This document shows positions 30,817-51,959 of a stretch of DNA of 64,000 bases, piece after piece. Under the pieces are notes generated by a model that was given only the letters and a program-made list of their open reading frames with translations, was not told where the DNA came from and did no database searches. A program made the position numbers and the translations under genes. Source of the DNA: Stratiformator vulcanicus (GTDB lineage Bacteria; Planctomycetota; Planctomycetia; Planctomycetales; Planctomycetaceae); the NCBI RefSeq assembly GCF_007744515.1, contig NZ_CP036268.1, forward strand, positions 2,829,712 through 2,893,711, read 5' to 3'. Positions within the stretch are counted from its first letter, which is position 1, and every line of letters begins with the position of its first letter.

Positions 30817-31791
30817 ATGGAGTTGTCGCTAATCGCCGAGAATCTTCTGGCGGCGCCGGTCCTGTTTTTTCTGCTCGGAATGGCCGCAACGTGGCTGGGG
30901 TCAGACTTGGACGTGCCGCAGTCGATCGCGCGCGGGTTGTCGCTTTACCTTCTGTTCTCGATCGGCATCCACGGCGGTTACGAACTGGCCGAGTCGGGCT
31001 GGACGGCCGGGATGCTTTCGATTCTCGGTGTCGCGGTACTGTCGGCGATCATCGTCCCGATCTGGTCGTTCTATATTCTCAGACAATTTCTCGGACCGAA
31101 CGATGCGGGGGCGATCGCAGCAACTTACGGCTCGATTAGCGCTGTCACATTCGTCACCGCAGTCGACTTCTTGCGGAGTAACGAGGTCGAGTTCGGCGGC
31201 TACATGGTGGCAGCGATGGCTCTGATGGAGTCACCCTCGATCGTGGTCGGCGTGCTGCTGGCCCGACTGTCGTCAGAAGACGGGAACGGTCGGCCGAAAG
31301 GCGAGCTCTGGCGGCGGCTCTTTCAGGAAGCTTTTTTGAATGGGGCAGTAGTTATTCTGCTCGGCAGCCTGCTGATCGGTCTGGTCACCGGCGACAAAGG
31401 TTGGCCGTCGGTAGAACCCTTCGCAGGGGCACCATTTAAGGGTGTGCTTTGCCTGTTCCTGTTGGAGATGGGGCTTGGGGCGGCTCGCCAGGTGAAAGCG
31501 CTGGCGAAGTGCGGACCGTTTCTGCTGACGTTCGGCATTGTCGCACCGATTGTACATGGAACCGGAGCAGTGCTCATCGCCCGGTTGATCGGGGCGTCCG
31601 CCGGCGATGCGACGCTTTTGGCCGTTTTGTGCGGCAGTGCCAGCTACATCGCAGTGCCCGCCGCCGTGCGGTTCGCGCTCCCGAAGGCGAAGCCGGGTCT
31701 GTACCTGCCGCTGTCGCTGGGCGTCACATTTCCGTTTAATGTGTCGATCGGGATTCCGCTGTATTACGCTCTGGTCACACTGCTGTGGTGA
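30817..31791 (+). CDS. sbtA: sodium-dependent bicarbonate transporter SbtA
   Basis: 324 residues, about ten membrane helices. The opening ENLLAAPVLFFLLGMAATWLG with SDLDVPQSI and the internal repeat (GLSLYLLFSIGIHGGYEL, VAPIVHGTGAVLIARLIG, LLAVLCGSASYIAVPAAVR) are characteristic of SbtA. It imports HCO3- with Na+. It is followed after 12 bp by its PII-like partner. Its presence in a planctomycete suggests inorganic-carbon supply for anaplerosis, not carbon fixation; there are no carboxysome genes in the window. Confidence 0.93.
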   Translation: MELSLIAENLLAAPVLFFLLGMAATWLGSDLDVPQSIARGLSLYLLFSIGIHGGYELAESGWTAGMLSILGVAVLSAIIVPIWSFYILRQFLGPNDAGAIAATYGSISAVTFVTAVDFLRSNEVEFGGYMVAAMALMESPSIVVGVLLARLSSEDGNGRPKGELWRRLFQEAFLNGAVVILLGSLLIGLVTGDKGWPSVEPFAGAPFKGVLCLFLLEMGLGAARQVKALAKCGPFLLTFGIVAPIVHGTGAVLIARLIGASAGDATLLAVLCGSASYIAVPAAVRFALPKAKPGLYLPLSLGVTFPFNVSIGIPLYYALVTLLW

Positions 31792-31803
31792 GGAGTCTGT
31801 GCG

Positions 31804-32097
31804 ATGTCGCCGGTACATAAGCTCGAAATCGTTGTCGATAAAGTTCACTTGAGAGAGGTCACGCGCTTGCTCGACGACGCCGGCGTCTCCGGCTGGACGA
31901 TGATCCCCGACGTCCCCGGCAAAGGAGGTCGCGGTGAACGCACCGGCGACGAACTCACCGGCGTGATGAGCAACTGCTACGTCTTCAGCGCCTGCGAGCC
32001 GGAAAAGACCGAAGGTCTGATCGAACCACTGCGGGCCCTTTTAAGACGTTCCGGTGGAATCTGTCTGGTGACGGAATGTAAATCGGTGATTCATTAA
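31804..32097 (+). CDS. sbtB: PII-like regulator SbtB
   Basis: 97 residues with a GAGGAG ribosome site. PII-like fold: LEIVVDKVHLREVTRLLDDAGVSGWTMI, a short T-loop region rich in Gly (GKGGRGER) and a C-terminal strand (GGICLVTECKS). In cyanobacteria SbtB trimers bind SbtA and sense adenine nucleotides including cAMP and c-di-AMP. The position directly after sbtA supports the same role. The cyanobacterial C-terminal cysteine hairpin is not obvious. Confidence 0.88.
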   Translation: MSPVHKLEIVVDKVHLREVTRLLDDAGVSGWTMIPDVPGKGGRGERTGDELTGVMSNCYVFSACEPEKTEGLIEPLRALLRRSGGICLVTECKSVIH

Positions 32098-33806: not shown

Positions 33807-34667
33807 ATGGACCACGCCGATAGCCACGGGGAGCATAACCCGATCGCCCACGTGATGCCGACGCCGATCCTGTTCGGCACGTTCGCGATCTTAGTCGCGC
33901 TGACCTTTCTGACGGTTTATCTGGGAACGCAGGTCACGCTCGGGCCTTGGGAAATCTACGTTTCGCTGGCAATCGCGTCGTTCAAAGCGTTTCTTGTCGC
34001 CGCCTTCTTCATGCACTTGCGGTACGACAAGCCACTGAACGGGTTGATGTTCGTGTTTTCGATCGTGTTCCTCGCCATCTTTTTGGGCGCGGTCATGGTC
34101 GACTTCTCGGCCAACCAAGACGAAATTCAGGCACTGGATGCGGCGAAAGAAGCCGAAGCGATCTCCACGGCCTCCGGAGGCGGCACGGTCGACGAAGAAG
34201 ACATGGTGCGAAACACTCCCGAAGAGGAAGTGCTCAGCATCGTCGCCTCATCCAAAGGCAGCGCTGCCGTCGGTGAAGCGTTGTTCGTGACAAAGACGTG
34301 CGTCGGTTGCCACCGCCAGATCGGCAACATGCCCCCGGTCGGACCGGCGCTCGGCGGCATCGCCAAGCGGATGTCCCGTCGCGAAATCGCAGAATCGATC
34401 CTGTATCCGTCGAAGAAAATCTCGAAAGGTTACGAGGCCTACACGGTTCTCACGATCGATGGAGTGCAGCACCTCGGGATTCTGGTCGAGGGCAAAGAAT
34501 CGGGCGATGCGAAGGTCCGTAAAGCGGACGGTACGCTGGTCACGATCCCCGAAGACGAGATCGACGACCTGTTCGAGTCCGAAAAATCGCAAATGCCCGA
34601 AAAGCTGGTCGACACGATCACGCCTGAGCAGTTCGCCGGGTTAGTGACTTATCTCGAATCGCTCTAG
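33807..34667 (+). CDS. cytochrome c oxidase subunit IV fused to cytochrome c
   Basis: 286 residues. Residues 1-100 are a three-helix caa3-type oxidase subunit IV: His-rich start, TPILFGTFAILVALTFLTVYLG, IASFKAFLVAAFFMHLRY and a third helix. After a Glu/Ala-rich linker, residues 150-286 form a cytochrome c domain with CVGCH at 165-169. Its block ILYPSKKISKGYEAYTVLTIDG is like the heme-binding domains of large planctomycete cytochromes (TIGR02603-type). The heme would face the periplasm. No other oxidase subunit gene lies next to it. Confidence 0.82.
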   Translation: MDHADSHGEHNPIAHVMPTPILFGTFAILVALTFLTVYLGTQVTLGPWEIYVSLAIASFKAFLVAAFFMHLRYDKPLNGLMFVFSIVFLAIFLGAVMVDFSANQDEIQALDAAKEAEAISTASGGGTVDEEDMVRNTPEEEVLSIVASSKGSAAVGEALFVTKTCVGCHRQIGNMPPVGPALGGIAKRMSRREIAESILYPSKKISKGYEAYTVLTIDGVQHLGILVEGKESGDAKVRKADGTLVTIPEDEIDDLFESEKSQMPEKLVDTITPEQFAGLVTYLESL

Positions 34668-35021: not shown

Positions 35022-36362
35022 ATGAACGCTTCTTTCGGGTCCACCCTCTCTTTTCGGGCCATCTTGCTGACGTGTGGAGCGGCCCTTTTCGGTCTTGCCA
35101 GTTGCAGTCGGCCGATTGACCCAGAGCCAGTCGCCGTCGCAGACCCGGTCACCGCTCAGACTGATGTCATCGACCTGGATGAAGGATCAACGCCCCCCAG
35201 CAATGCGAGCCCTGCTCCGAATCCTTACCGGCAAGACGTGAATCGTCCGAGCGGGACGGTGGCAGCGACGATCACGAACCCGGCACCGCCGACGAGTTCA
35301 GCGTTACCTTCGAATCGAACGAATCCGACACCGCCCGTAACGACGCAATTGCCGTCGCCCCCGATTTCGTCTGCCCTTCCGGCAAACTCGAATCCTCCGA
35401 CATCAGACCCTGCTGGCGATACGGTCGCTGCGCTGGACAACACTCCGCCCGCGACAGGCGGGCAGAATCACGGCAGCGACAAAAGTCTCGATGAGCAGCT
35501 TGCGGAATTTCAGCTTCCTCCCGCATGGATCAATTCCGTAAGGCCGAACTACGACACGTCCCGCCCGTGGAAGGAAGCCCGGCTTGAAATCCGTAGACTG
35601 CTGGCTAATGACGATCGTCAGTCAGTCGAACAAGCATTAAAAATCAATTGGATTTACTATAAAAAAAAGGCCGCTGGAGCAGGGGTTGAGTATCCGGAAT
35701 ACGTCCACTTAGGCGGCGAGCACCTTTGGGCCGTCCACGCCCATGAATGGCTGCTCAAACAGAACCTGCCACAGCCACCGATTCACGCCGAGATTCAATT
35801 GGCATCGCTCTACACGTCATTTGGCGATTATCAAAAAGCCGAACGGCTCTTAGGAATGACGATGCGCCGGATCCCCAGCGGCCCTTGGCTGACCTATCGT
35901 CAAGCCGATGTCCAGCAGGCCTTGGGAGACCTCTATGCGGCATGGGGCAAAGACCGGCTGGCCCAACAACATTACGCAGAGGCCGCCCGACTCTACCCTC
36001 TGGCCAACAAAATTCCCTATGGAAAACACTTACTGAAGCGACGCTCTGAGAAAGTGCAATCCAAACTGCGAATGCTTGCCTCATCGGCTCTATCGTCAGC
36101 CAGCCTGCGCGACGGCACCTACCGCCATCGCACGTTGGGGTACAGCGGCGATATTAATGTCACCGTGAAAGTTGCTGGCGGACAAATCTCGGACATTAGC
36201 CTAAAGCACAAGGAAAAAATCGAACAGGGATCGACCAAAATCGTGCCCGATCGCATTATGAAACAACAGAAGTTGCAGGTCGATGGCGTGACAGGAGCGA
36301 CGGTCACATCGGATGCGATTAAGACCGGAGTTTTTGAGGCTCTCAAACGTGCAGGCCTTTAA
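35022..36362 (+). CDS. lipoprotein with helical repeat region and C-terminal FMN-binding domain (copy 1)
   Basis: 446 residues. A lipoprotein signal with lipobox LASC (Cys28) is followed by about 110 residues of Pro/Ser/Thr/Asn-rich linker. Next is a TPR-like helical part (about 155-350; RPWKEARLEIRRLL, LGDLYAAWGKDRLAQQHYAEAARLYP). Residues 365-446 are an FMN_bind domain like RnfG/NqrC, with DGVTGATVTS at 421-430; Thr429 is the predicted FMN attachment site for ApbE. It should carry covalent FMN outside the cytoplasmic membrane. It is a paralogue of the next gene. Confidence 0.83.
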   Translation: MNASFGSTLSFRAILLTCGAALFGLASCSRPIDPEPVAVADPVTAQTDVIDLDEGSTPPSNASPAPNPYRQDVNRPSGTVAATITNPAPPTSSALPSNRTNPTPPVTTQLPSPPISSALPANSNPPTSDPAGDTVAALDNTPPATGGQNHGSDKSLDEQLAEFQLPPAWINSVRPNYDTSRPWKEARLEIRRLLANDDRQSVEQALKINWIYYKKKAAGAGVEYPEYVHLGGEHLWAVHAHEWLLKQNLPQPPIHAEIQLASLYTSFGDYQKAERLLGMTMRRIPSGPWLTYRQADVQQALGDLYAAWGKDRLAQQHYAEAARLYPLANKIPYGKHLLKRRSEKVQSKLRMLASSALSSASLRDGTYRHRTLGYSGDINVTVKVAGGQISDISLKHKEKIEQGSTKIVPDRIMKQQKLQVDGVTGATVTSDAIKTGVFEALKRAGL

Positions 36363-36530
36363 GCCTTTGCACAAAGCCGCTTGATAATCCCGACCTTATT
36401 CGAACGAGTGAATTTCATGCCGGCCCTTGGAGATTTCTCTTTGACAACCAGTCTCCTGTTGAAAACTAAATTCCGTCCGGGCGATCTGGCATCGAAAAAT
36501 CGCCGGGGGAAGTTGTTTACTTCCGCCTAT

Positions 36531-37700
36531 ATGAGGCGGTTGGCCCTGTTGATCTGTGGCGGAGTATTGCTGTGCCTCGCTGGTTGCGGTCAGTCAGACG
36601 AAGCCGAGGAGTCCATAGTAGCGACCCCGCCGGCCGCAGAGCTTGAGATGATCCGCATCGATTCAGGTCGGGGCGACGAGACAAGCCCTTCGGAAAACAC
36701 GGCTTTGACGCAACGTGACACTCCCCCGGTGCGGGAGAAGAGCGGGAGCATCAACGAGCCACGCATCCAAACGGCATCCGTGCCGAATACGCCGTCTTCC
36801 CCACGCACAAGCGGCAGATCACTTGACGAGAAACTCGCGAACCTGCAGGTGCCTCCCCCCTGGCTTGCTTCTGTGTCGACAAACTACAATACCTCGAAGC
36901 CGTGGAAAGAAGCCCGGCTGGAGGTTCGCCGATTGCTGGGCGTCGAAACTCTTCGGGCAAAGAGAGAAGCGATCAAGCTCTCGTGGATCTATTTCAATAA
37001 GACCCCGCAGGAGAAAGGAGTCGCCGGCGAATTCCCGCATTACCTTCAAATGGGGAATGAGAACGTGTGGGCGATTCAAGCCTACGAAGACTACCTCTCG
37101 ACTAAGAGAAACCCGACTCCCATCCACTCGCACATGATGGTGGCCTCGCTGCTGCATCAACAAGGTGAATTTGATAAAGCCAAGGCACACCTCGATTTTG
37201 CAATGAACAATCTCCCCGGAAAACCGTGGCGAGAGATGCGACAGGCTACTCTATATGATCACTTTGGCGACCTTTACGCCGCTTGGGGAAAGTATGACGA
37301 AGCTCGCCAGTCTTATTCCGCCTCGGCCCGAATCTTCCCGATTGCCAAGCCACCTTATGGTCGACACGAACTCAAGAAACGGTCACTGAAGGTGCAGTCG
37401 AAACTGGAATTGCTCGCGACTCGGGCGTTGAGCAACGCTTCTTTGCGGGACGGAACCTATCGTGAATCGGCAATCGGTTATAGTGGTGACGTACACCTCA
37501 CGGTCAAAATCTCCGGTGGACGCATTGCTGATATCGCCATCAAGCACAAAGAAAAGATCGAGCAGAACGCAACGAAAATCCTGCCGCAGCGAATTATTGA
37601 TAAGCAAAGCCTTCAGGTCGATGCGGTCAGCGGCGCAACGGTCACATGCGACGCGATCCGGACTGGGGTATATCGCGCCCTTAAAAAGGCAGGGCTTTAA
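36531..37700 (+). CDS. lipoprotein with helical repeat region and C-terminal FMN-binding domain (copy 2)
   Basis: 389 residues from ATG 36531, which yields an ideal lipoprotein signal (Cys19 in LAGC). The frame is open upstream to 36381, with ATG 36417 as the main alternative. The order is the same as in copy 1: low-complexity linker, helical repeats (RPWKEAR counterpart KPWKEARLEVRRLL, FGDLYAAWGKYDEARQSY) and FMN_bind with DAVSGATVTC; Thr372 is the predicted flavin site. It is clearly a tandem duplicate of the preceding gene. Its stop overlaps the start of the polyferredoxin gene, which implies coupled expression. Confidence 0.82.
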   Translation: MRRLALLICGGVLLCLAGCGQSDEAEESIVATPPAAELEMIRIDSGRGDETSPSENTALTQRDTPPVREKSGSINEPRIQTASVPNTPSSPRTSGRSLDEKLANLQVPPPWLASVSTNYNTSKPWKEARLEVRRLLGVETLRAKREAIKLSWIYFNKTPQEKGVAGEFPHYLQMGNENVWAIQAYEDYLSTKRNPTPIHSHMMVASLLHQQGEFDKAKAHLDFAMNNLPGKPWREMRQATLYDHFGDLYAAWGKYDEARQSYSASARIFPIAKPPYGRHELKKRSLKVQSKLELLATRALSNASLRDGTYRESAIGYSGDVHLTVKISGGRIADIAIKHKEKIEQNATKILPQRIIDKQSLQVDAVSGATVTCDAIRTGVYRALKKAGL

Positions 37701-39475
37701 TGGCTAAATCCGCCGTTGACGTCTTCTTCCCGTATCTGAAAAAGAGCAAGCGGAAGGGCTGGATCGGTGTTGCCCACCGCACGCTCAATCGGATCGGCCC
37801 GACGTGGCTCACGTCACCGTTACGTCGAGTGGTGCAGGTCGTTTGCCTCGCACTGTTTCTCTATGCGTTCTTTTACGTCTGCTGGCCTTATTCCTCTTCC
37901 TCCGAATTTTCGGCGGGACTATTCGACAGTAAAGAGTTGAACCCGGCAGAGTTATTCTTGCTGATTGACCCGCTGGTCGGCGTTTCAACCGCATTGGCCG
38001 GCAAGGTCTTTAATTGGGCGACCTTCGCGTGGACCCTCGGCATTCTGACTTTTTGCATTCTGATTCCCCGCGCATTCTGCGGCTGGTTCTGCCCGCTGGG
38101 CACTCTCATCGATTTCTTTGACTGGGCCGTCGGCAAGCGAGTGCCGAAGCTGCACGTCGAACCGCGTGGTTGGTGGGTGCATACCAAGTATTACATCCTG
38201 ACAGGCGTATTAGTTTCAGCGCTGTTCGGTGTGATGACGGCAGGCTTCTTCTCGGCGATTCCCGTACTCACCCGAGGACTCTTATTCACCGGAGGTCGCG
38301 CGCAGATTGCAGTCTTAAAAGACAGCAGTCACCTCCGAGCAGTCGAAGTCACGTTCTATATTTCGATCGCCATGTTCTGCGGGGTGTTCCTGCTGAGCTT
38401 AATGGGCAAGCGATTCTGGTGCCGGTACGTCTGCCCGAGCGGGGCGCTTTTGTCGGTCTTCAATACATTTCGTGTCGGCGAGCGGAAGGTCGAATCGAGC
38501 TGCGTGAAATGTAATAAGTGTGTCGAAATCTGCCCGTTTGATGCGATCAAAGAGGATTTCACGACCCGCACGGCCGACTGCACCTATTGCCAAACCTGCG
38601 GGGGCGTTTGCCCGGTGCATTCGATTAAGTTCGTCACACGATTTAATGATGACGAATTAAAGGTGGAAAACGATCCTCCGAATGTCGAGCGACCCATGTC
38701 GCGTCGCGGTTTCGTGGCAGCAACAGTCGTCGCCGGGGCAGCCGCCGCTTTTGCGCGGGTATCGTCGGCGAAGGCGGCGACCGCACCACCCGGTGAGGGT
38801 CCGCTTCGACCTCCGGGGAGCGTACCCGAGCCTGACTTCTTAAATCTGTGTATTCGATGTGGCGAGTGTTTTAAGGTTTGCCCCGGGCCAGTCTTGCATC
38901 CGGCAGGATTGGAATTCGGTCTCGATGCGATGTGGACTCCGATCGCCGTACCGTCTCACGCCGGATGTCATCAAGACTGTAACTTCTGTACAGAGGTCTG
39001 CCCGACCGGGGCGATCCAACCGCTCGATTTGCTGGTTAAACGCAAGACCCACATGGGGCTGGCTTGGCTTAATCCCGATACATGCCTGCCCTTGCGAGAA
39101 GAGAATCGTGAGCCGTGTGACCTTTGCTACGTCGAATGCGCCGCTGCCGGATACGATGCGATCACCTTAGAAACGATCCGCATTGAACTCGACCCTCCGC
39201 CTCCCGACGGCATGTTTTCGGTCGACGAACTGGACGCGATGAGCCGGGTCGAAATCCCCGTCGTCGATCGTGACCTGTGTGTTGGTTGCGGTATCTGCGA
39301 GTACCGGTGCAACGAGCGATACGTCAAACAGACCGGCGTATTGAGCGAACCGGCCATCGTGGTAACGGCTGAGAACGAACACCGATTGTTCGAGTATCCG
39401 GAGTCTCCCTCCGAGTTACCAATGCCGAACACACGCGTGCGAGATCCCGAAGGCCAAGAAATCAGTAACATTTAA
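37700..39475 (+). CDS. NapH/NosR-type membrane polyferredoxin fused to NapG-like ferredoxin domain
   Basis: 591 residues; ATG 37700 overlaps the previous stop. The N-half has about five membrane helices with the paired CxxxCP motifs CGWFCP (127-132) and CRYVCP (241-246), then two ferredoxin clusters (Cys268/271/274/278 and Cys294/297/300/304). At residues 333-358 a twin-arginine-like segment (SRRGFVAATVVAG) leads into a C-half with four more cysteine sets (384-395, 423-434, 462-480, 527-537). NapH and NapG are separate quinol-to-nitrate-reductase subunits elsewhere; here they are joined. It is the likely electron conduit to the two FMN lipoproteins. Confidence 0.85.
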   Translation: MAKSAVDVFFPYLKKSKRKGWIGVAHRTLNRIGPTWLTSPLRRVVQVVCLALFLYAFFYVCWPYSSSSEFSAGLFDSKELNPAELFLLIDPLVGVSTALAGKVFNWATFAWTLGILTFCILIPRAFCGWFCPLGTLIDFFDWAVGKRVPKLHVEPRGWWVHTKYYILTGVLVSALFGVMTAGFFSAIPVLTRGLLFTGGRAQIAVLKDSSHLRAVEVTFYISIAMFCGVFLLSLMGKRFWCRYVCPSGALLSVFNTFRVGERKVESSCVKCNKCVEICPFDAIKEDFTTRTADCTYCQTCGGVCPVHSIKFVTRFNDDELKVENDPPNVERPMSRRGFVAATVVAGAAAAFARVSSAKAATAPPGEGPLRPPGSVPEPDFLNLCIRCGECFKVCPGPVLHPAGLEFGLDAMWTPIAVPSHAGCHQDCNFCTEVCPTGAIQPLDLLVKRKTHMGLAWLNPDTCLPLREENREPCDLCYVECAAAGYDAITLETIRIELDPPPPDGMFSVDELDAMSRVEIPVVDRDLCVGCGICEYRCNERYVKQTGVLSEPAIVVTAENEHRLFEYPESPSELPMPNTRVRDPEGQEISNI

Positions 39476-40883: not shown

Positions 40884-41212
40884 GATACTAATTCTGTTCG
40901 ACCCGGAGAGCATGTGCGTCTCTAAGATAATCTGACCGATTCGTTGCGATTCGTCGATCACCAATTCGTTTATGAGGAATCGAAGAGCAAAACTGCATCG
41001 GCTTTGCCGATATGGTCGAAAATTTTCGAGACTTCAGGAGCAAAGTGGTGTTCCAGTTACGACCCACTGTGCGCTCTACCGGAAAAGCTCTTCCGCAAGT
41101 TTCATTGCGGTAGTGGTTTAAGTACAGCAATATCACTGTGAGCTTTGCCATTTCTGAAGGTTGCGTTTCTCTTCACTTCGAACAGCTCTTCACTTCGAAC
41201 AGGTTGACTTTC
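40884..41212. other. 329-bp divergent region upstream of the T2SS locus
   Basis: This is the start-to-start gap between the BON-domain gene and the secretin-N protein. The in-frame GTG 41138 lies inside it, but a 17-bp tandem duplication there (41169-41202) argues that it is not coding. It presumably holds the main promoter of the secretion locus. Confidence 0.45.
41169..41202 (+). repeat. perfect 17-bp tandem duplication
   Basis: A 17-bp unit, CTCTTCACTTCGAACAG, occurs twice without a gap. The length is not a multiple of three, which fits a leader region better than coding sequence. It ends 10 bp before GTG 41213. Confidence 0.7.
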
Positions 41213-44200
41213 GTGGCTGCCCATCGAAATTCGCTCCGCTGGATCGTGTCCGCATGCTTTTTGGGCGTGCTGACGATTCTCCCCGTCAGCGCTCAAGCGC
41301 AGCGCGGTGGCGGATTCGGTCGACCGCAAACGCCACTGATGTACTTGCGCGATGAGGATGTCCAGCAGGAACTCGGCATCACCGAGGAGCAGCGATCCGA
41401 GCTGATGGACATCGTCTCGCGAACGTTTTCCCAAAGCGGGAACATGTTCGAGAATTTCCGCCGGATGCGATCGGCCGAGACTGATGAAGAGCGAAACCGC
41501 ATTCGCGAAGAGATTCGCTCCCAAATGCAGGAGCGGATCAAGGAGATCGAAGTTGACGCCCAGCGTGTGATTTCCGGCGGGCAGTTTTCTCGTTTGAAGC
41601 AGATCGCGCTGCAGGCGCAGGGATCGCGAGCGATCGCGCAGGAAGAATTACAGCAAGAACTCGGGCTGAGCGAAGACCAACGGTCAAAGGTCTCGGAACT
41701 GAACGATCAGCGGTCCGAGGCACTCCGCGCGTTGGGACGCGATGCCGACCCCGAGGAGTCGCAGAGGATCCGCGATGATTTCGACGGCAAGATTCAGGAA
41801 GTGCTGACCGACGATCAGAAGTCCCAATGGAAACAAAAGATGGGTGAGCCTTCGGAAGCCGCTCAGAAGATGGTGCAGAATCGCGGCGGAGGCGACCGCA
41901 ATCGCACTCGACGCGGCGGAAGAGATGAAGACAACGACTCTGAACGACGCGGCCCGCCGGGAAGTCGCCAAGACGTCGAGAACAAACCTGAAAGTCGTTC
42001 CGCTTCGCGTGGAGAGGACAACGCACAGCAAGACGACTCCGCCGACGATCTACCGACAGGAGATGAGACGCCGGTTGTTGTCAATACCCCGGAAACGCAA
42101 GTGCCCGACGGCGCCGAAGTCACAGCTTCATTCGGGTCCGACGCCGGGACGACCGGGCAAGCAACTGAAGAAACCGGGAAGATCTCATTCAACTTTCGCT
42201 ACGCCCCGTGGCCCGACGTGTTGCGGCTGTTCGCGGAAGTCGGGGGGCTAACGCTCGATCTGAACGAAGTCCCGCAAGGCACGTTCAGCTACTACGACCC
42301 GAACAGCTACACCCCGACCGAGGCGATCGACGTCATCAATGGCTATCTGCTGCCCAAGGGATTCATTCTCGTCCGCCGGGATAACTTCCTCGTATCAGTC
42401 GACGTGAGTGAAGGCATTGCTCCGAATCTTGTGCCCGATGTCTCTCTCGAAGAACTCGACAACCGAGGTAAGAACGAGTTATTGAGCGTGGTGATTCCCC
42501 TCTCGGGCATCGACGCCGAGAAAGCGGCGGAGGAAGCGCAAGCTCTACTTGGTCCTCAAGGAACAGTCGCGTCGCTGAGCGCATCGAATGCGATCGCGGT
42601 CACTGACATCGGAGCCAATCTGCGTCGCATCCGCGATCTACTGGAAAAGGCGACGCTGCGAGAAGGGCCGACCGATATGGCATTTCGCAGCTTTAAAGTT
42701 CGAAATATCCCGGTATCGGAGGCGGAGCGAACGATTCGCAACCTGTTCGGTATCGGAAGCGGTGTTCCAAACGTGAGTGCAGCGGCCTCGGGGGAGCGAG
42801 ATCGCGACCGACGCAGATCGTCTTGGGATCGGCGTCGCGAGGATGACGGACGCCGTGATCAGTCCGGCCAGGCTCAGGCGAGCGATCCGACGATTCAGAT
42901 CGCGTCCGACTCGCGCACCAACACGCTGCTGGTCTCGGCTACGATTGCGAAACTGACGATGATCGAGCAGGTGCTTCAAACGGTCGATGTCGGCGGTGAG
43001 GGCAGCGACTTCGTGGACGAGGTCAAAGACAACAAACCGTTTCTGCGAGTCTATGAACTTGAGGAAGCAGATGCTTTCGAGGTGTCGAAGACGCTCAATG
43101 CGCTAATGCCCGGTGTCGTCGTCAACGAAGACGCTCGCAATGACCTGTTGCACATCTTCGCCTCGCCAGCCGACCAGAAAGAGGCCGAGCAGTTAATCCG
43201 GCAACTCGACGGACTCGGCGGCGGCCAGTCGGTCGCGGTGATGCCGCTCTCGACGGCTGATCCGGCTTCAACCGCTTTAGTACTTCGCTCGCTGTTCGCC
43301 GGTGATGAGGATCGAGCCCCAAAGATCGAAGCCGATAACTTCGGCCGACGGATCATGGTCCGTGGCACTCCCGATCAGATCACTCAGGTCCGGTCGCTTC
43401 TTACTCAATTGGGCGAGAACGGGCAGGCCGGTCAGCAGTCGTTGGTTTCCGGCAAAGGTCCGATCCGCATGATTCCACTGGGCGGGCGTGATCCGTCCGA
43501 CCTGTTGCCGTTGATCGAACGGCTGTGGAACGCGTCGGGCCGGGCCAACATCCGCGTTGTCGTCCCGTCGGATGAAGGGGAAAGTCGACGTCCCTCAAGC
43601 CGCCTCGAAGCGACTGATATCGGATCCGATCGCGGACCGACGATTCGCTCCGCGACGTTGCTTCAGTCGACCGCAAACGAGACCGATGAGCCGGATGCGA
43701 GCGATGGTGACGCCGACTTCGAAGACTGGGCCCGCGAAATCTTCGGCGAGAGCCCTGACGACGGCGCGGCCCCGAAATCGCAAAGCGGCGGCGAATCGAC
43801 GCGGCCCATGACCTCGTCGCCCAATTCAACCGGCAACGATGAAGCCGACCGCAGGTCGCAAGCATCGGCGCCGCCGGAGGTCACCGTCACCGTGCGAGGT
43901 GGCCAATTGATGCTGCTTTCCGAGGACGAAGATATCCTCGATCAGTTAGAGCAACTCGTTCAGTCGCTGATGCTCACTTCCAAGCCACAGACGCAGTGGA
44001 CCGTTTTTTATCTGCGGACCGCCGACGCGACGACCTCCGCGTCGATGCTGCAACAGCTCTTTCCCGATGCGACGATTGGCGGCGGACTGCTGCTCGGGTC
44101 ATCGTCATCAGCGGATGGACTATCGCCGCTCGGTTCGGACCCGACAGTCGAGATCATTCCGGAAACACGATTGAACGCACTCTTCGTTCGCGGCCCAAAG

Positions 44201-44932
44201 CAAACGGTCGACCGCATGGAAGAGGTCCTGAAACTGCTCGACTCGGCCGAACTCCCCGAATCGCTGAGGGACCGGGTCCCGCGGACGATTCCGGTCGCGT
44301 ACGCCGATGTCAGCGAAGTCGCTGCGATCTTAAAAGACGTGTATGCGGATCAGATGGGTGACAATGACCGCGGCAGAGACGCGAATCGCGGGCGCGGGCA
44401 GCGTGGCGGCAACGGTTCGAATCCGTTCGAAGCAATGCTGGGCGGAATGCAGGCGGCTTCGCGGCCCACGGAAGTCCGCGTCTCAATCGGCGTCGATACG
44501 CAGACGAGCCAGATCGTCGTCTCAGCAAACGAAGCGACCTTCAACGAGATCAGTCGCTTGGTCGAAACACTCGATGATTCGGCCCGCGCGGCAAATCGGA
44601 CCGTCCGGGTCATGTCGGTCAACAAAGAGAACTCGCTGCTGATTCAACAGGCACTCGGCTCGGTGATCCCGAAGGTCCGCGTCAGCACGACCGGGACGCC
44701 GCAATCAGGTCGCTCAGCGTCACCGAGCAGCTCGTCATCAGCGCGGTCGGGCGACGATGCGGCCGCCGCGCAGGCTCGTGACGCAATCCGGCAGCAAATG
44801 CTGGAGCGCTTCCGCCAGACGCAGGGCGGCGGCGGGCGGCCTGCGGGTGCAGAGGCCCAAAACCGTGGCGGCAATCAACGGGGAAGTGGCGGCGGTGATC
44901 GCGGAAATCGGGGGCAACGCGGTCGCCGTTAG
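41213..44932 (+). CDS. secretin N-domain repeat protein without a barrel (T2SS-associated)
   Basis: 1239 residues from GTG 41213, giving a Sec signal peptide ([23 protein letters not shown]); GTG 41138 is possible. The first 240 residues contain LTXXQ/Spy-like helical repeats ([40 protein letters not shown]). After a low-complexity linker come about seven secretin N-type (NolW/GspD N1-N2) units, for example [22 protein letters not shown] and [22 protein letters not shown]. There is no secretin barrel; the protein ends in an Arg/Gly-rich tail. As first gene of the locus it may act as a periplasmic adaptor to the GspD ring. Confidence 0.8.
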
Positions 44933-45016
44933 GAAAATCGATCTCCCCGATTGCGGCCCTTTTAAATTCTCCCTTCGAACGGTTTAGCGTCTTCGCGATT
45001 CTACAGCAGTATCTTA

Positions 45017-46702
45017 ATGGATATCGGCGACCTACTTGTTCAACGCGGGTTGATCACCGCCGACCAGCGCACCTCCGCTGTCGCGCTCGGTAACGGTTCT
45101 GCCGCGCGGCTCGATAGGGCCGTCGTCGAGTTGGGGTACGCCGCTGAAGAAGACGTGTTGGAACAACTGGCCGACGAGCTCGGCATGAGATACGTCGACC
45201 TCACGCAGTTGGACGTCTCACCCGAGTTGCTCGCGAAGTTCCCGACATCGCCGCTCTACAAGCACGTTCTGCTGCCGCTCGAAGAAAAAGCGGGCAAAGT
45301 GTACGTCGCCGTCAGCGATCCGTTCGATGTCGAAGCGTTGCAGGAATTGGCCACGCTGACTGGCCTTAAACTGCGTGCGGTACTGGCTCCACGCGAGCAG
45401 ATTTTGCGGCAGATTAAAGAGCACCTCGGCGTCGGCGGCGACACGATCAATGAACTGATCCGTGCCCGAGGTGACGACGGTGTCGAACTCCTTGAGGAGC
45501 TTTCGGCCGAGTCCGGGGAACTCGCCGAGCAGGCACAATCCGCTTCCGTCATTCGGCTCGTCAACGAACTGCTCGTCGAAGCGCTCAATTTAGGGGCAAG
45601 CGACGTGCATATCGAACCGGCCGAACGCGGATTGACGGTTCGATTTCGTGTCGACGGCCTCCTCCGAGTCCAGTCGGTGCCGGCGGAAATTAATCATTTC
45701 TTCGCCGCGATCGTGACCCGCCTGAAGATCATGGCGCATCTTAATATTGCGGAGAAGCGACTGCCGCAGGACGGACGGATTCAACTCCGCGTGTCGGGTC
45801 GAGAAATCGACGTCCGTGTTTCGATTATCCCCATGATTCACGGCGAAGGCATCGTGCTGCGCCTGCTCGATAAACAGCGGATGAAGTTCGACCTCGAGTC
45901 GGCCGGGATGCAGGAAAAGGATTACAAGACATTTCGCGAACTGATCACGATGCCGCACGGAATTGTGCTCGTGACCGGCCCGACCGGTAGCGGTAAGACG
46001 ACGACGCTTTACTCGGCGCTCAATGCGATTAAAACACCCGAGACGAAAATTATCACGGTCGAAGATCCGGTCGAATATCACACGCAGGGCATCAGCCAGA
46101 TTCAGGTTCACAGCCGGATCGGCCTGACGTTCGCCGCGGGACTGCGGAGCATTCTCCGACACGACCCGGATGTCGTGCTGATTGGCGAAGTCCGAGACAG
46201 CGAGACCGCCCAGAGCGCGATCCAAGCGTCGCTGACCGGACACCTCGTCTTCAGCACGCTCCACACAAATGATGCACCGGGATCTTTTACACGGCTCATC
46301 GACATGGGTGTCGAACCCTATCTCGTGGCCAGCACGGTTGAAGGCATCCTCGCTCAACGGCTGCTCCGAACATTGTGCAAGCACTGCAAGCAGCCATATG
46401 TGCCGAAAGAGGACGACATTCCGCCCGAGTTCCCCGAACCTCGGCCCGAAGTGCTTTATCGCGCGGCCGGTTGCCGAGAATGCAGCAACACCGGCTACCG
46501 GGGCCGGACGGGAATCCATGAACTGCTTAAGACTGATGCAGTCGTCCGGCGGCTCTGTATCGAACGGGCCGACGCCGGACAGATTCGCGAATACTGTCTC
46601 CGACAGGGTATGACGACCTTGCGACAGTCGGGGTTTTATAAAGTCGCCGACGGAATCACCAGCATCGACGAAGTCATGAGAGTCACACGCGGCGATGCCT
46701 GA
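45017..46702 (+). CDS. gspE: type II secretion assembly ATPase GspE
   Basis: 561 residues. The N-terminal MshEN-type domain ([22 protein letters not shown]) precedes the GspII_E core: [19 protein letters not shown], Walker [14 protein letters not shown] near residue 321, [20 protein letters not shown], Walker [18 protein letters not shown] and [15 protein letters not shown] four-cysteine zinc site (CKHC and CREC) follows at about 455-500. It powers pseudopilus growth at the cytoplasmic face. It ends 8 bp inside gspF. Confidence 0.96.
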
Positions 46703-47903
46703 CTTTTCCTATATCGCAAGAGAACGCACCGGCTCACGCGTCTCCGGCGTGATCGCCGCCGGAAGCAAACAGGAAGCACTCAGCCTGCTTGCCGGGCGCA
46801 CGCTGTTCCCACTTAAGGTCGAACCGGCGGCGGAAAAGCAGTCGCTATTTCCGCAGTTGAAGTCGAGAGTCCGGCCGAGCCATCTCGCGACGTTTTACGC
46901 CCAACTCGCCGACCTCTTAAAAGCAGGCGTGCCGCTGCTGAGGTCCCTCGAATTACTGCAGCGAAAGTCAACCAACGCCGCACTCGGAAAAGTGCTTAAA
47001 GAAATCCACGCAGAAGTCGCCGACGGCACGAAACTTTCCGACGCGATGCGGCAGCATTCCAATGTCTTCGGCGACCTCGGGGTCAGCATGGTTCGCGCCG
47101 GCGAGGAAGGCAGCTTTCTCGAAGACGTTCTTAAACGAATCGCCGCGTTTACCGAACACCAGCAATCCTTAAAAAGTCGCGTGCAGGGGGCCTTAATTTA
47201 TCCGCTGTTTCTGATCGGCATGTTGACGGCGGTGGTGATCGGGATGCTCGTCTTCTTCGTGCCGAAGTTCGCACCGATCTTCGAACGCATGAGTGCAAAG
47301 GGTGAGCTTCCTATACCCACGCAAATCCTGATGGCGTTCAGCGATACCGTGAACAGTTACTGGCCACTGATTGTCATTGGGATCGGAATCGCGATCTACT
47401 TCGGCCTCCGAGCGATGAGAGACCCTCGCCAACTGGAGCGGATCGACGGTTTCAAACTGCGGGCCTACGGCATTGGTCCCATCGTAAAAAGCCTTGCAAT
47501 CTCCCGGTTCTGCCGCATTCTGGGAACATTGCTTAACAACGGCGTGCCGATCCTGCGTTCGCTGCAGATCGCGAAGGACGCCACCGGCAACCGGGTGCTG
47601 ACAAAAGCGATCGGCGATGCTTCGGAAAGCGTCTCCGCCGGCAAGTCGCTCGCGGGCCCGCTCGGCTCATCGGGTGAGTTTCCGGACGAAGTCATTGAAA
47701 TGATTGCCGTCGGCGAAGAGGCGAACAACCTTGAAGAAGTGTTGGTCGGGATCGCCGAAACGACGGAACGTAATACAAATCGCCAACTCGACATCTTCGT
47801 ACGAATGCTCGAACCATTGTTGCTGACCGTCATGGCGGGCATCGTGCTGTTCGTCGTGGCGGCGCTGCTGTTGCCTATTCTACAAAGCAGCGGAGCCTTC
47901 TAA
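46695..47903 (+). CDS. gspF: type II secretion inner-membrane platform protein GspF
   Basis: 402 residues, two T2SSF domains ([25 protein letters not shown] and [25 protein letters not shown]) and three membrane helices (about 168-190, 220-240 and 370-398). Length and order match classical GspF. It overlaps gspE by 8 bp. A 133-bp gap with no visible gene separates it from gspG. Confidence 0.96.
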
Positions 47904-48036
47904 TTCGCACAACGATCGAGCCGACGGCTTTCTTCTGCCGTGCCCGTCCGCAAAATAGAACGTTCTCTGAGTGCGAAAATACCAAAACAAGACAGCCCAC
48001 CCCCACCGCATATCGCAATTGAAAGGAAGACTGAGA

Positions 48037-48483
48037 ATGAAGAGTCATAACATTCGAATCCGCCGCGCCGGCTTCACGCTGCTCGAAGTGCTGCTCGTGC
48101 TCGCCATCCTGGGCGTCATCGCGGCGATGGTCGTGCCGCAGTTATTGGGGCGGCAGAAGAAGGCCATGATCGACACAACTAAGAACAGCATCTCGGCGAT
48201 GGAGCAGGCGGCGAAGCTCTACGCGATCGACCATGATGGCGAGTACCCACAGGGTGGGCAGGACGCAGTCGCGCTGCTGCTTGAGCCGGTCGATGACGAT
48301 GGCAAAGCGATCGAGCCCTATCTTGAAAAAACACCCGCGGACGCGTGGGAGACGCCTCTGCTCTACGAATACCCGAACTCCAAGGGCGGCCGCGCGACAA
48401 AGCCCGCCATCTGGTCGGCCGGACCGAACAAGCGAAATGAAGACGGGGGCGGTGACGACATCAATAATTGGAGCGAGACGTGA
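48037..48483 (+). CDS. gspG: type II secretion major pseudopilin GspG
   Basis: 148 residues from ATG 48037 with AGGAAG upstream; the frame continues to 47971. Class III leader RRAG then FTLLEVLLVLAILGVIAAMVVP, with Glu5 conserved. The C-terminal part has the GspG features DGEYPQGGQDAVALLLEP and DAWETPLLYEYP, a calcium-loop region in the family. It forms the pseudopilus shaft. The stop overlaps the gspH start by 4 bp. Confidence 0.94.
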   Translation: MKSHNIRIRRAGFTLLEVLLVLAILGVIAAMVVPQLLGRQKKAMIDTTKNSISAMEQAAKLYAIDHDGEYPQGGQDAVALLLEPVDDDGKAIEPYLEKTPADAWETPLLYEYPNSKGGRATKPAIWSAGPNKRNEDGGGDDINNWSET

Positions 48484-49049
48484 GTTCGGCCGGCCGCACA
48501 TCACCGCATTCGCGAGGGAAACAGACGCAGCGCCGGGCATTTACGCTGTTCGAGCTGCTGCTGGTTCTCGCGGTCTTGGCAGTGATTGCCGGCATGGTCG
48601 TGCCGACGCTCTCCGGCGCAATGTCGACGCGACCGCTTCGCGGCGCAGCAGATCAAATCAGGCAGGTACTTACAACAGCAAGGCGGGACGCGATCGATGC
48701 GGGCGTCCCCATGCGATTCGAATTCGAAACGGGAACGAACATATTTCGTGTCGCACTGTTGTTCGACGTGAGTGCTGGGGCGGTCGAATCAACCGCTATA
48801 GAAACGCCCCCCGGAGTGACATTTATTGGAGAGGACAGGCTCGACGGCGATATCGTATTTGCGGAATCCGAGGGTCTCAGTTTGACTGCTCAGAGCGACG
48901 CCGCTGCCGTCTTCTTTTATCCCGACGGCACTTCCGACTCAGCGCAGATCAGACTCGTCGATGACGCGAATCACTCGATCGTGATCAAACTTCGCGGGTT
49001 GACCGGCGCGGTCACCGTAGGCTCGATCGGTCGCGGAGGCGGGCCATGA
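48480..49049 (+). CDS. gspH: type II secretion minor pseudopilin GspH
   Basis: 189 residues from GTG 48480, within GTGA and preceded by GGAG at 7 nt. The leader ends RRA before FTLFELLLVLAVLAVIAGMVVP, so the residue before the cleavage site is Ala, not the usual Gly. The rest (ALRGAADQIRQVLTTARRDAIDAGVPM-type helix and strand-rich C-terminus) fits GspH. The order in the operon (G-H-I-J-K) supports the name. Confidence 0.88.
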   Translation: MSSAGRTSPHSRGKQTQRRAFTLFELLLVLAVLAVIAGMVVPTLSGAMSTRPLRGAADQIRQVLTTARRDAIDAGVPMRFEFETGTNIFRVALLFDVSAGAVESTAIETPPGVTFIGEDRLDGDIVFAESEGLSLTAQSDAAAVFFYPDGTSDSAQIRLVDDANHSIVIKLRGLTGAVTVGSIGRGGGP

Positions 49050-49462
49050 CGACCAGCCGCAACGGGCTGACGCTGTACGAGGTCGTCCTTGCGCTCGCAA
49101 TCTTTATCGCGGCGCTGGCAGCGATCTCTCAGATATTAAATGTCGGGGCCCGGTCCGCTTCGGTCTCTCGCCTAAGGTCGGAGGCGATCGTCCGCTGCGA
49201 TTCAAAGATTGCCGAAGTCGTCGCGGGAGTCGTTCCCATGCAGTCCGTTTCGAGCATTCCTTTCGAAGACGACCTGGAAGGCCGTTGGACCTGGAGCCTC
49301 GAATTGCTCGCCGGCCCGCATCCTGGTCTGCAGGAAGCGGTCGTCACAGTCGAATACGGAGGTGGCGAACGCGACTTCGACGTCGATTGCGAATTGCGCC
49401 GTTGGATTCCGATTGTCGATACCGCAATCGTCGCGGCAATCGCCTCGGAGGCGGGACGATGA
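49046..49462 (+). CDS. gspI: type II secretion minor pseudopilin GspI
   Basis: 138 residues. ATG 49046 overlaps gspH by four bases. The leader TTSRNG precedes LTLYEVVLALAIFIAALAAI, a pseudopilin helix with Glu5. The short mature domain is typical of GspI. GspI, J and K form the tip complex of the pseudopilus. Identity rests on order and helix, because the globular part is divergent. Confidence 0.85.
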   Translation: MTTSRNGLTLYEVVLALAIFIAALAAISQILNVGARSASVSRLRSEAIVRCDSKIAEVVAGVVPMQSVSSIPFEDDLEGRWTWSLELLAGPHPGLQEAVVTVEYGGGERDFDVDCELRRWIPIVDTAIVAAIASEAGR

Positions 49463-50382
49463 GGATGCAATCTCACCCCCAATTAACTCATCGATCACCC
49501 GGCGGCTTCACGCTGATCGAAGTCGTGCTGGCTCTCGCCCTGACCGTCGTTTTAATGGCGGCGATTCTTTCGGCCTTGGAACTGAATCGGCGGCTCGTCA
49601 TGACGGGGCGCGAGGAGATTGAACGGGCTCGCATTGCCCGGGCCGTATTCCAACGCATTTCTCGCGATCTGCGATCGGTCACGTTCCGCGTCGATACGAT
49701 TGCCGCCGAGGAGGATGGGGCGGTCGTCGACTCCGCCGACCCCGCTGCTGCGGCGGGAGAGGACTCTGAATCGACGACTGAAGAGGAGCCCGAGGAGGAC
49801 GAGGCAACGGTGATCGGCGCCGTCGATCCGGAATCATCACTGCTCGCCGCATCGGGAGGTTTGACCGGCAGTACCGATGCGCTGGTGATGCAAATCTGCC
49901 GGCCGCCGCGGCTTAACTACCGACTGTCCGGAGCCAATGGCGGCACTTCGCAGGTCAGTGAATTGCAGTCGGTCTCCTATTTTGTTGCCTCGCCCGGCGC
50001 TGGTGGACTGGCGGGAGCCGTGGGCGATGCCCGCGCGGAAGTCGGCCTTTCGCGGCTATCAGGAGATCGGCTCGCCATTGAACAAGCCGATGTTGAAGGC
50101 AATCTCGGACTGCTGGCCAACGCTACGGAAGTCCTCGCACCTGAGATCACCGCGGTTTACTTTCGCTATTTCGATGGCGCCGGCTGGGTCGAAGCGTGGG
50201 ACTCCTCTGTCACCCGCAACCTGCCCGCGGCAGTCGAAGTCACGTTTGTATTCGAGGCCGAGGACCAGTCTATTGAAACGACAGGGTTCTCACTCGATAC
50301 GGACGAGTCTTGGCGCGGCGTGATCGCGCTGCCTCTCGCGGGCGCCTACGCGGCGGAAGCGGTAACGGAGGTGACGCCGTGA
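49459..50382 (+). CDS. gspJ: type II secretion minor pseudopilin GspJ
   Basis: 307 residues. ATG 49459 overlaps gspI by four bases, with a purine-rich GGAGGCGGG stretch just upstream. Leader SPGG then FTLIEVVLALALTVVLMAAIL. It is longer than the usual 200 residues because of an acidic insert (about 80-115, many Glu/Asp) in the globular domain. The later GVIALPL and VEVTFVFEAED strands resemble GspJ. Confidence 0.86.
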   Translation: MRMQSHPQLTHRSPGGFTLIEVVLALALTVVLMAAILSALELNRRLVMTGREEIERARIARAVFQRISRDLRSVTFRVDTIAAEEDGAVVDSADPAAAAGEDSESTTEEEPEEDEATVIGAVDPESSLLAASGGLTGSTDALVMQICRPPRLNYRLSGANGGTSQVSELQSVSYFVASPGAGGLAGAVGDARAEVGLSRLSGDRLAIEQADVEGNLGLLANATEVLAPEITAVYFRYFDGAGWVEAWDSSVTRNLPAAVEVTFVFEAEDQSIETTGFSLDTDESWRGVIALPLAGAYAAEAVTEVTP

Positions 50383-51959
50383 AAGCTATCGCCCTTTGCA
50401 AAACTTCCGATCGCTCGGGCATCGTGTTGCCGATTGTGCTGATCGTCATCGTGATGTTGTCACTGGCGGCTTACACCTTCACAGACACATCGGTCAGCGA
50501 ACGCGAAGCGACCGAGATGTACCGGCGAAGCGTCGAGGCCAGCCTCGCGGCTGAGTCGGGTGTGGAACTCGCACGGGCCTGGCTCGCCGACCCACAAGAT
50601 CTGCGAATCGAAGAACTCGCCTCGAATGACTCACTCTTTCACGCTGTCCTAACCAAGCCCGCCGCAACGGCCAGCGGAACAGGACGGACGAGTGTGCTGT
50701 CGCTGGTGCCGCAGCAGTACGAAGACCCGCTGATTCAATTTGGAGTCGCCAATGAGTCGGGCAAAATTAATTTAAACGCCCTACTCGACCTGCGGCTTAA
50801 CGAGGAAGAACGCCGCAACATGCTGCTCCCGATCCCGGGCATGACGATCGAGATCGCCGATGCCATTCTTGACTGGCTCGACCCCGATGCGACACTCCGC
50901 GAGTTTGGGGCAGAGGGCGAATACTACTCTACACTCAGTCCCCCTTATTCACCGAAAGACGGTCCCGTCGACGTGCTCGACGAACTGCTGCTCGTGCGCG
51001 GCGTGACACCGGAATTGCTATATGGTGAAGACCTTAATTTGAACGGCGTGTTAGATCCTAATGAGGACGACGGGGCGGAAACGCTTCCACTCGATAATGC
51101 CGACGGCATTCTCGAAACCGGTTGGCGCTTCTATCTGACGGTCCATTCACGCGAGACGAATCTCCGCGCCGACGGGTCGACCAAAATCGATGTCAACGGC
51201 AGCGATCTCGCAGCGCTCTACGACGAACTCGAAATCGAGTTGGGTGAAGAGATTGCGAAGTTTGTTCTCGCGTTTCGGATCAGTGGTCCGCGGGTGGAGG
51301 GCGGATCGCCTTTCGGTCGCCGTCGACGTGGCGGCAATTCAAACACGCAAGGTGAGACGCGTGGTGGAATCCGCATCCCCTCCCGGGCGAGGTTCCGCAT
51401 CCGCTCGCTTTACGAACTTGTCGCCGTACAGGTCGAAGCTGAAATCGACGGCGCGCGAACAACGCTCGACAGTCCATGGCCGGCCGAACCTTCGACATGG
51501 GAGTCAGCCTTTCCGATTCTCCTCGACGCCGTGGGCCTCAGCGCGGAACCCTATATCGAGGGGCGAATCAACATTAATCACGCCCAACGCGAAGCACTGC
51601 TCGGCATCCCCGAAATGACCGAAGAACTGGCCGATTCGATCGTCGGTACCCGACTCACCGCCGGGCAAGGATGGACCAGCGGCGACGCCACGCCGACAAC
51701 CGCGTGGATGGTAGAGCAGGAACTGGTGAACCTCGAGCAAATGCGGGAGCTGGATCAATACATCACGGCTGGCGGCGGAGTCTTTCGACTGCAAAGCGTC
51801 GGTACCTTTGATGCAGGCGGACCCGCGGCCCGGCTCGAAGCGTTGATTGACACAACGCAATATCCACCACAATTAATATTCGTGCGAGACCTGAGTGATT
51901 TAGGGCGAGGGTATCCCCCCGAGTTCTTTCGGCCCGTCGCCGAACCGGTGATGCGGTAA
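50379..51959 (+). CDS. gspK: type II secretion minor pseudopilin GspK
   Basis: 526 residues from GTG 50379, overlapping gspJ by four bases; the family is usually 320-350. The N-terminal helix GIVLPIVLIVIVMLSLAAYTFTD lacks the usual Glu5, as is common in GspK. Two helix-hairpin-type units are visible (INLNALLDLRLNEEERRNMLL and ININHAQREALLGIPEMTEELADSI). An EF-hand-like loop DLNLNGVLDPNE lies at 51030-51065. It caps the pseudopilus. Confidence 0.88.
   Translation: MKAIALCKTSDRSGIVLPIVLIVIVMLSLAAYTFTDTSVSEREATEMYRRSVEASLAAESGVELARAWLADPQDLRIEELASNDSLFHAVLTKPAATASGTGRTSVLSLVPQQYEDPLIQFGVANESGKINLNALLDLRLNEEERRNMLLPIPGMTIEIADAILDWLDPDATLREFGAEGEYYSTLSPPYSPKDGPVDVLDELLLVRGVTPELLYGEDLNLNGVLDPNEDDGAETLPLDNADGILETGWRFYLTVHSRETNLRADGSTKIDVNGSDLAALYDELEIELGEEIAKFVLAFRISGPRVEGGSPFGRRRRGGNSNTQGETRGGIRIPSRARFRIRSLYELVAVQVEAEIDGARTTLDSPWPAEPSTWESAFPILLDAVGLSAEPYIEGRININHAQREALLGIPEMTEELADSIVGTRLTAGQGWTSGDATPTTAWMVEQELVNLEQMRELDQYITAGGGVFRLQSVGTFDAGGPAARLEALIDTTQYPPQLIFVRDLSDLGRGYPPEFFRPVAEPVMR

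Follow-up and report, generated by a model that had tools for sequence, protein, structure and literature searches.

The stretch of DNA that we analysed (the window, 64,000 nucleotides) carries three genes on the + strand at positions 35022-39475, where the sequence-only reading of this DNA had also placed them. They encode two predicted lipoproteins, LP1 and LP2, followed by a polyferredoxin. The features of the locus are as follows.

35022-36362, + strand: LP1, lipoprotein of 446 aa with a linker, a TPR-like helical repeat and a C-terminal FMN_bind domain (PF04205, AlphaFold2)
35103-35105, + strand: LP1 predicted lipobox cysteine C28 (LASC; motif)
35106-35483, + strand: LP1 linker, rich in Pro, Ser, Thr and Asn, about 126 aa, predicted to be disordered (pLDDT <50)
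35487-36080, + strand: LP1 TPR-like helical repeat, residues 156-353 (AlphaFold2, Foldseek, profile matches)
36111-36359, + strand: LP1 FMN_bind domain, residues 364-446 (PF04205, AlphaFold2, Foldseek match to 8p2b)
36306-36308, + strand: LP1 predicted flavin-bearing Thr429 (VDGVTGATVT; motif, homologue alignment)
36531-37700, + strand: LP2, lipoprotein of 389 aa paralogous to LP1, start ATG 36531 (the mechanical ORF runs from TTG 36381)
36585-36587, + strand: LP2 predicted lipobox cysteine C19 (LAGC; motif)
37644-37646, + strand: LP2 predicted flavin-bearing Thr372 (VDAVSGATVT; motif, homologue alignment)
37700-39475, + strand: polyferredoxin of 591 aa, NapH-NapG fusion, start overlapping the LP2 stop (TAATG)
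37820-38635, + strand: NapH-like part, residues 41-312, with four predicted TM helices, two CxxxCP motifs and two [4Fe-4S] motifs predicted to be cytoplasmic
38702-38707, + strand: twin arginine R335-R336 ahead of TMD5, kept in all 28 aligned homologues
38837-39319, + strand: NapG-like part, residues 380-540, with four [4Fe-4S] motifs predicted to be extracytoplasmic

The three genes had been described as one tight unit. This description fits LP2 and the polyferredoxin gene, which overlap, whereas the arrangement of LP1 and LP2 is looser, with 168 bp between the LP1 stop codon and the LP2 ATG. We took ATG 36531 as the best predicted start of LP2 in preference to TTG 36381 because the latter would add 50 residues ahead of a good signal peptide. 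The LAGC lipobox falls at the signal-peptide position only with the ATG start. A convincing ribosome-binding site was not established for either codon.

Both LP1 and LP2 are predicted lipoproteins in which a lipobox closes the signal peptide, and the two proteins are 44% identical, in agreement with the earlier view of two tandem paralogues. PF04205 (FMN_bind) matched the C-termini of LP1 and LP2 at 45.6 and 44.8 bits, respectively (cut-off 22), and the curated model of Rnf subunit G was not reached (17.8 versus a cut-off of 102). In an AlphaFold2 model of LP1 built on 24 homologues, residues 1-149 were disordered, residues 156-353 formed paired helices with a pLDDT that was mostly over 90, and from about residue 364 the chain folded into an alpha/beta domain. 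Foldseek searches with this model retrieved many TPR proteins; the best E value of 9.4e-3 falls short of strict significance but is consistent with such a fold. Because of these matches, and because Pfam TPR_8 reached its cut-off in LP2, we assign the helical segment of both lipoproteins to a TPR-like repeat on profile and model evidence. The paired helices and the TPR_8 match thus substantiate the proposal that a helical repeat lies between the lipid anchor and the flavin. The FMN domain of LP1 resembled that of CbFMN4 (8p2b), with a Foldseek TM-score of 0.80 over the target, and CbFMN4 was also retrieved by phmmer (E 8.4e-4). A search of plasmids with LP1 gave no match. LolA also gave no match in the source genome despite the predicted lipoproteins, and lipoprotein sorting may therefore differ in this organism.

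The predicted attachment motif ends in TGATVT at LP1 Thr429 and in SGATVT at LP2 Thr372 (Thr422 if translation began at TTG 36381). With the PF04205 matches and the ATG start, both positions hold as first proposed. The sequence-only reading had reasoned that homologues lacking the terminal Thr, or a genome lacking ApbE, would argue against covalent flavin. The acceptor was retained in all 61 homologues (Thr in 59, Ser in 2), as were the Ala and Thr ahead of it (Ala-Thr-x-Thr/Ser), while the Gly position of the motif varied (33 Gly, 14 Ser and others). The source genome contains three apbE genes scoring far above the cut-off, none of which adjoins the triplet. Elsewhere, apbE adjoins the pair formed by the FMN protein and polyferredoxin genes in 15 loci, 12 of which have it on the same strand upstream of the FMN gene; it is absent beside the triplet and beside its closest relatives. 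In a tree with long branches, no ApbE of the source genome grouped clearly with the main operonic set. The only FMN_bind proteins of the genome are LP1, LP2 and NqrC, the last encoded with NqrB and NqrD in a Na+-NQR locus (L004) that we read from translated sequences, and service to Na+-NQR can also explain the three apbE genes. Covalent FMN on LP1 and LP2 is strongly predicted nonetheless, because the acceptor Thr or Ser is universal among the homologues, apbE is linked to the pair and the genome encodes three ApbE proteins.

The third gene had been called a membrane polyferredoxin, and profile searches upheld this: PF12801 (Fer4_5) matched in two stretches (55.4 bits, cut-off 22), together with many Fer4 matches. 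Residues 41-205 matched NapH and residues 333-537 matched NapG. Because both scores were below the cut-offs of the curated NCBIfam equivalogs (94.2 versus 234 for NapH and 84.4 versus 269 for NapG), we classify the protein by its profile matches as a fusion that resembles NapH and NapG and is an orthologue of neither; the sequence-only reading had not remarked on this fusion. A Foldseek search with the polyferredoxin model returned nothing, and hence no NapH or NapG structure. Conserved cysteines account for two [4Fe-4S] motifs downstream of TM4 and a further four (384-537) beyond TMD5. Between the two cluster sets the sequence reads SRRGF and continues into a helix of weak hydrophobicity with positive charges behind it; all 28 aligned homologues have at least one positive charge downstream of the twin arginine. 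TatC is present in the source genome. Using reporter fusions, Tooke et al. (2017; PMC5449189) showed for a NapH-NapG fusion polyferredoxin that insertion of the first helices is Sec-dependent and that of the last is Tat-dependent. By its sequence, our protein matches this dual Sec/Tat type, with RR335-336 before a weakly hydrophobic TMD5 and four [4Fe-4S] motifs after it. It shares with the MLMS-1 protein of that study (Q1NSB0) the NapH-NapG fusion, the RR before TMD5, the positive charges that follow and the four extracytoplasmic clusters; however, three cytoplasmic clusters are predicted in Q1NSB0 and only two canonical motifs are present here. Since no other Fer4_5 protein was detected in the source genome, and NqrC is the only FMN_bind protein apart from LP1 and LP2, the polyferredoxin is the likely redox partner of the two lipoproteins. 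Second-subtype polyferredoxins at two other loci (L033 6055-8580 and L050 7686-10070) are about 800 aa long, with an N-terminal extension and about 90-110 extra residues after TM1.

With the polyferredoxin as the sole query, a search yielded 18 named loci, and whole-genome searches found the protein in 38 of 150 sampled genomes of the host's family, about a quarter, and in 15 of 294 genomes of a phylum sample. We counted as informative the 55 loci whose polyferredoxin gene has enough DNA ahead of it; in all but one of these (54/55) it is preceded by an FMN_bind gene in the same orientation. As 11 of these loci had first been chosen by their FMN protein, the pairing among the remaining 44 is 43/44. 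For the lone exception (L100), related FMN proteins are encoded on different contigs of the same genome (G145). The two genes mostly overlap or are separated by less than 60 bp, with a few longer gaps of up to 2.9 kb. Recurrence of the triplet, which the sequence-only reading had asked about, is therefore true of the pair; the triplet itself is the form taken in the host's lineage, and in general the polyferredoxin is paired with a single FMN protein, often accompanied by apbE. The pair is further present in metagenome bins assigned to Verrucomicrobia (L049) and Sumerlaeota (L051), although such bins can be misassigned. One locus (L026, 5446-12534) holds two complete cassettes of different subtypes arranged head to tail with one apbE.

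When neighbouring genes were clustered across non-duplicate loci, no reductase, oxidase or dehydrogenase was conserved beside the pair, and apbE (15 loci) was the only functionally telling recurrent neighbour. Genes for DUF1501, sulfatase, EAL/FHA, ThiG, DUF1552/PSD, MoxR ATPase and CBM9 proteins recurred in 3-8 loci each. Because several came from closely related genomes and their positions were mostly variable, we rejected these as partners and attribute them to local synteny or to genes that are common in Planctomycetes. The product of a gene at window positions 33807-34667 (+) joins subunit IV of a caa3-type oxidase to a c-type haem domain (TIGR02603). This orphan gene was also rejected as a part of the module, as it lies about 350 bp upstream of LP1 and its conservation beside the pair was not found.

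A tree of 56 FMN proteins placed LP1 and LP2 as sisters (100/98) within a clade of single-copy relatives. Because the rest of the clade is single-copy, we assign the duplication, from the tree, to the host's lineage. The two copies are 67% identical in their FMN domains, 48% in their TPR regions and 26% in their linkers. Tandem FMN genes of a distant subtype occur at two further loci (L034 and L036). In the host's clade the lipobox is found together with a linker of about 65-127 residues, whereas in most of the related secreted proteins that belong to the same subtype the signal peptide runs directly into the repeat. This association and the predicted disorder of the linker suggested the idea of a long, flexible, lipid-anchored tether. 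Lipobox-like motifs were also seen in three second-subtype members. L024 has a different N-terminal insert. At L024 (9019-10314), L033 (8661-9986) and L050 (6379-7689), the FMN proteins have a small additional domain (LExLNGxxLxGE...) near the N-terminus, inserted between the signal peptide and the TPR region.

Domain content, conservation of the motif and the cysteines, gene coupling and apbE linkage are read directly from the sequences. From these we infer, with somewhat better than even confidence, that the triplet encodes a NapH-like, flavinylation-based transmembrane conduit in which electrons pass from quinol to the polyferredoxin, to FMN and on to a TPR-docked partner. The route of the electrons very probably leads from the quinone pool in the membrane to the outer side of the inner membrane. 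The N-terminal TM part of the polyferredoxin would oxidise quinol, as the likeness to NapGH and the proposal made for related systems (PMC8238504) suggest, and the iron-sulfur clusters would pass the electrons on to the C-terminal domain, predicted to be brought to the outside of the inner membrane by the Tat pathway. This domain would reduce the covalent FMN that ApbE is predicted to attach to Thr429 and Thr372. The lipid and the long flexible linker would hold LP1 and LP2 at the membrane, and the TPR domain would dock an extracytoplasmic partner, the recipient of the electrons from the FMN. As no reductase or oxidase is conserved beside the pair, gene context sets neither the direction nor the partner, and it is on outward flow that we place most weight. 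A more elaborate form of this reading, in which the triplet is a self-contained outward electron-export module with tethered, swinging flavins, the TPR domains pick among partner enzymes and LP1 and LP2 serve different ones, is offered only as an unlikely possibility.

The same components could work inward, with an extracytoplasmic dehydrogenase as electron donor to the lipoprotein FMN and with quinone accepting the electrons from the polyferredoxin. The authors of PMC8238504 note that the direction could be reversed and that oxidases such as ExaA are among the enzymes that NapH-like systems can serve, and carbohydrate-active genes adjoin the pair in L024, L026 and L040. However, those genes are confined to the three loci, no dehydrogenase is conserved with the pair, and the C-terminal part of the polyferredoxin resembles NapG of the quinol-oxidising NapGH; we regard inward flow as unlikely. 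Somewhat less probable still is that the module dispenses with a dedicated partner enzyme and either maintains or repairs the redox state of envelope proteins or reduces extracellular acceptors directly as a terminal module. The self-contained pair, with apbE as its one telling neighbour, and the long disordered tether of one clade would suit such a role, but no thiol or Met-sulfoxide reductase is conserved beside the pair, nothing tested pointed to surface exposure, and LolA was not detected. TPR lipoproteins commonly have assembly roles, and LP1 and LP2 could be structural or assembly lipoproteins for the polyferredoxin with no covalent flavin, but the Ala-Thr and acceptor residues kept in 61/61 homologues and the apbE linkage in 15 loci make this very improbable.

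The favoured reading, an outward flavin-based conduit, places the cassette in a category that already exists. NapH-like flavinylation systems were defined by Méheust et al. (2021; PMC8238504), whose main text counts 539 gene clusters with a separate FMN_bind gene. As in those systems, a PF12801 membrane FeS protein is combined here with a secreted or lipidated FMN_bind protein, with the FMN_bind gene in the locus, the Thr/Ser motif and ApbE in the genome; many of the published loci also contain apbE. Unlike the systems described in that main text, from which the terms TPR, tetratricopeptide and planctomycet are absent, the present one has a TPR region on the FMN protein, a NapH-NapG partner and a duplicated lipoprotein. 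FMN is in turn unmentioned in PMC5449189. The halves of the polyferredoxin match the models of the NapGH quinol dehydrogenase, but they are fused, score far under the curated cut-offs and have no adjoining Nap reductase. PceC, NosR, RnfG and NqrC likewise combine an FMN_bind domain bearing a Thr-linked flavin motif with an FeS or membrane partner; however, their flavin domain is in or tied to a TM protein, whereas LP1 and LP2 are predicted lipoproteins with a TPR region and a linker. The sequence-only interpretation is supported, with an amendment to the suggestion that the lipoprotein form is not a standard type: the TPR region and the lineage-specific lipidation and duplication set it apart within a category that had been described. 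Among open-access papers, we found nothing closer that joins the TPR, lipid tether and duplicated flavin protein. The basic kind of system is thus known, and the version with these three features is undescribed in the searchable open-access literature; what sets it apart is the TPR domain, the NapH-NapG partner, the duplication and, in one clade, lipidation combined with a long linker.

These findings join two separate lines of work, on NapH-like flavinylation systems and on dual Sec/Tat NapH-NapG polyferredoxins, and point to a compact two- or three-gene conduit for Planctomycetes in which the flavin carrier has a domain that is likely to dock proteins. Flavinylated electron carriers have so far largely been catalogued by their membrane partner. 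Given the presence of the polyferredoxin in 38/150 family genomes, the extracytoplasmic partner could be fished out by means of the TPR domain. The wider surroundings of the triplet in the window include an SbtA/SbtB-like pair (30817-32097, +), in which the gene for an Sbt-type Na+-dependent bicarbonate transporter precedes one for a small PII-like protein, and a run of type II secretion genes (41138-51959, +) that encode a protein with six Secretin_N stretches, GspE, GspF, and GspJ-like and GspK-like proteins.
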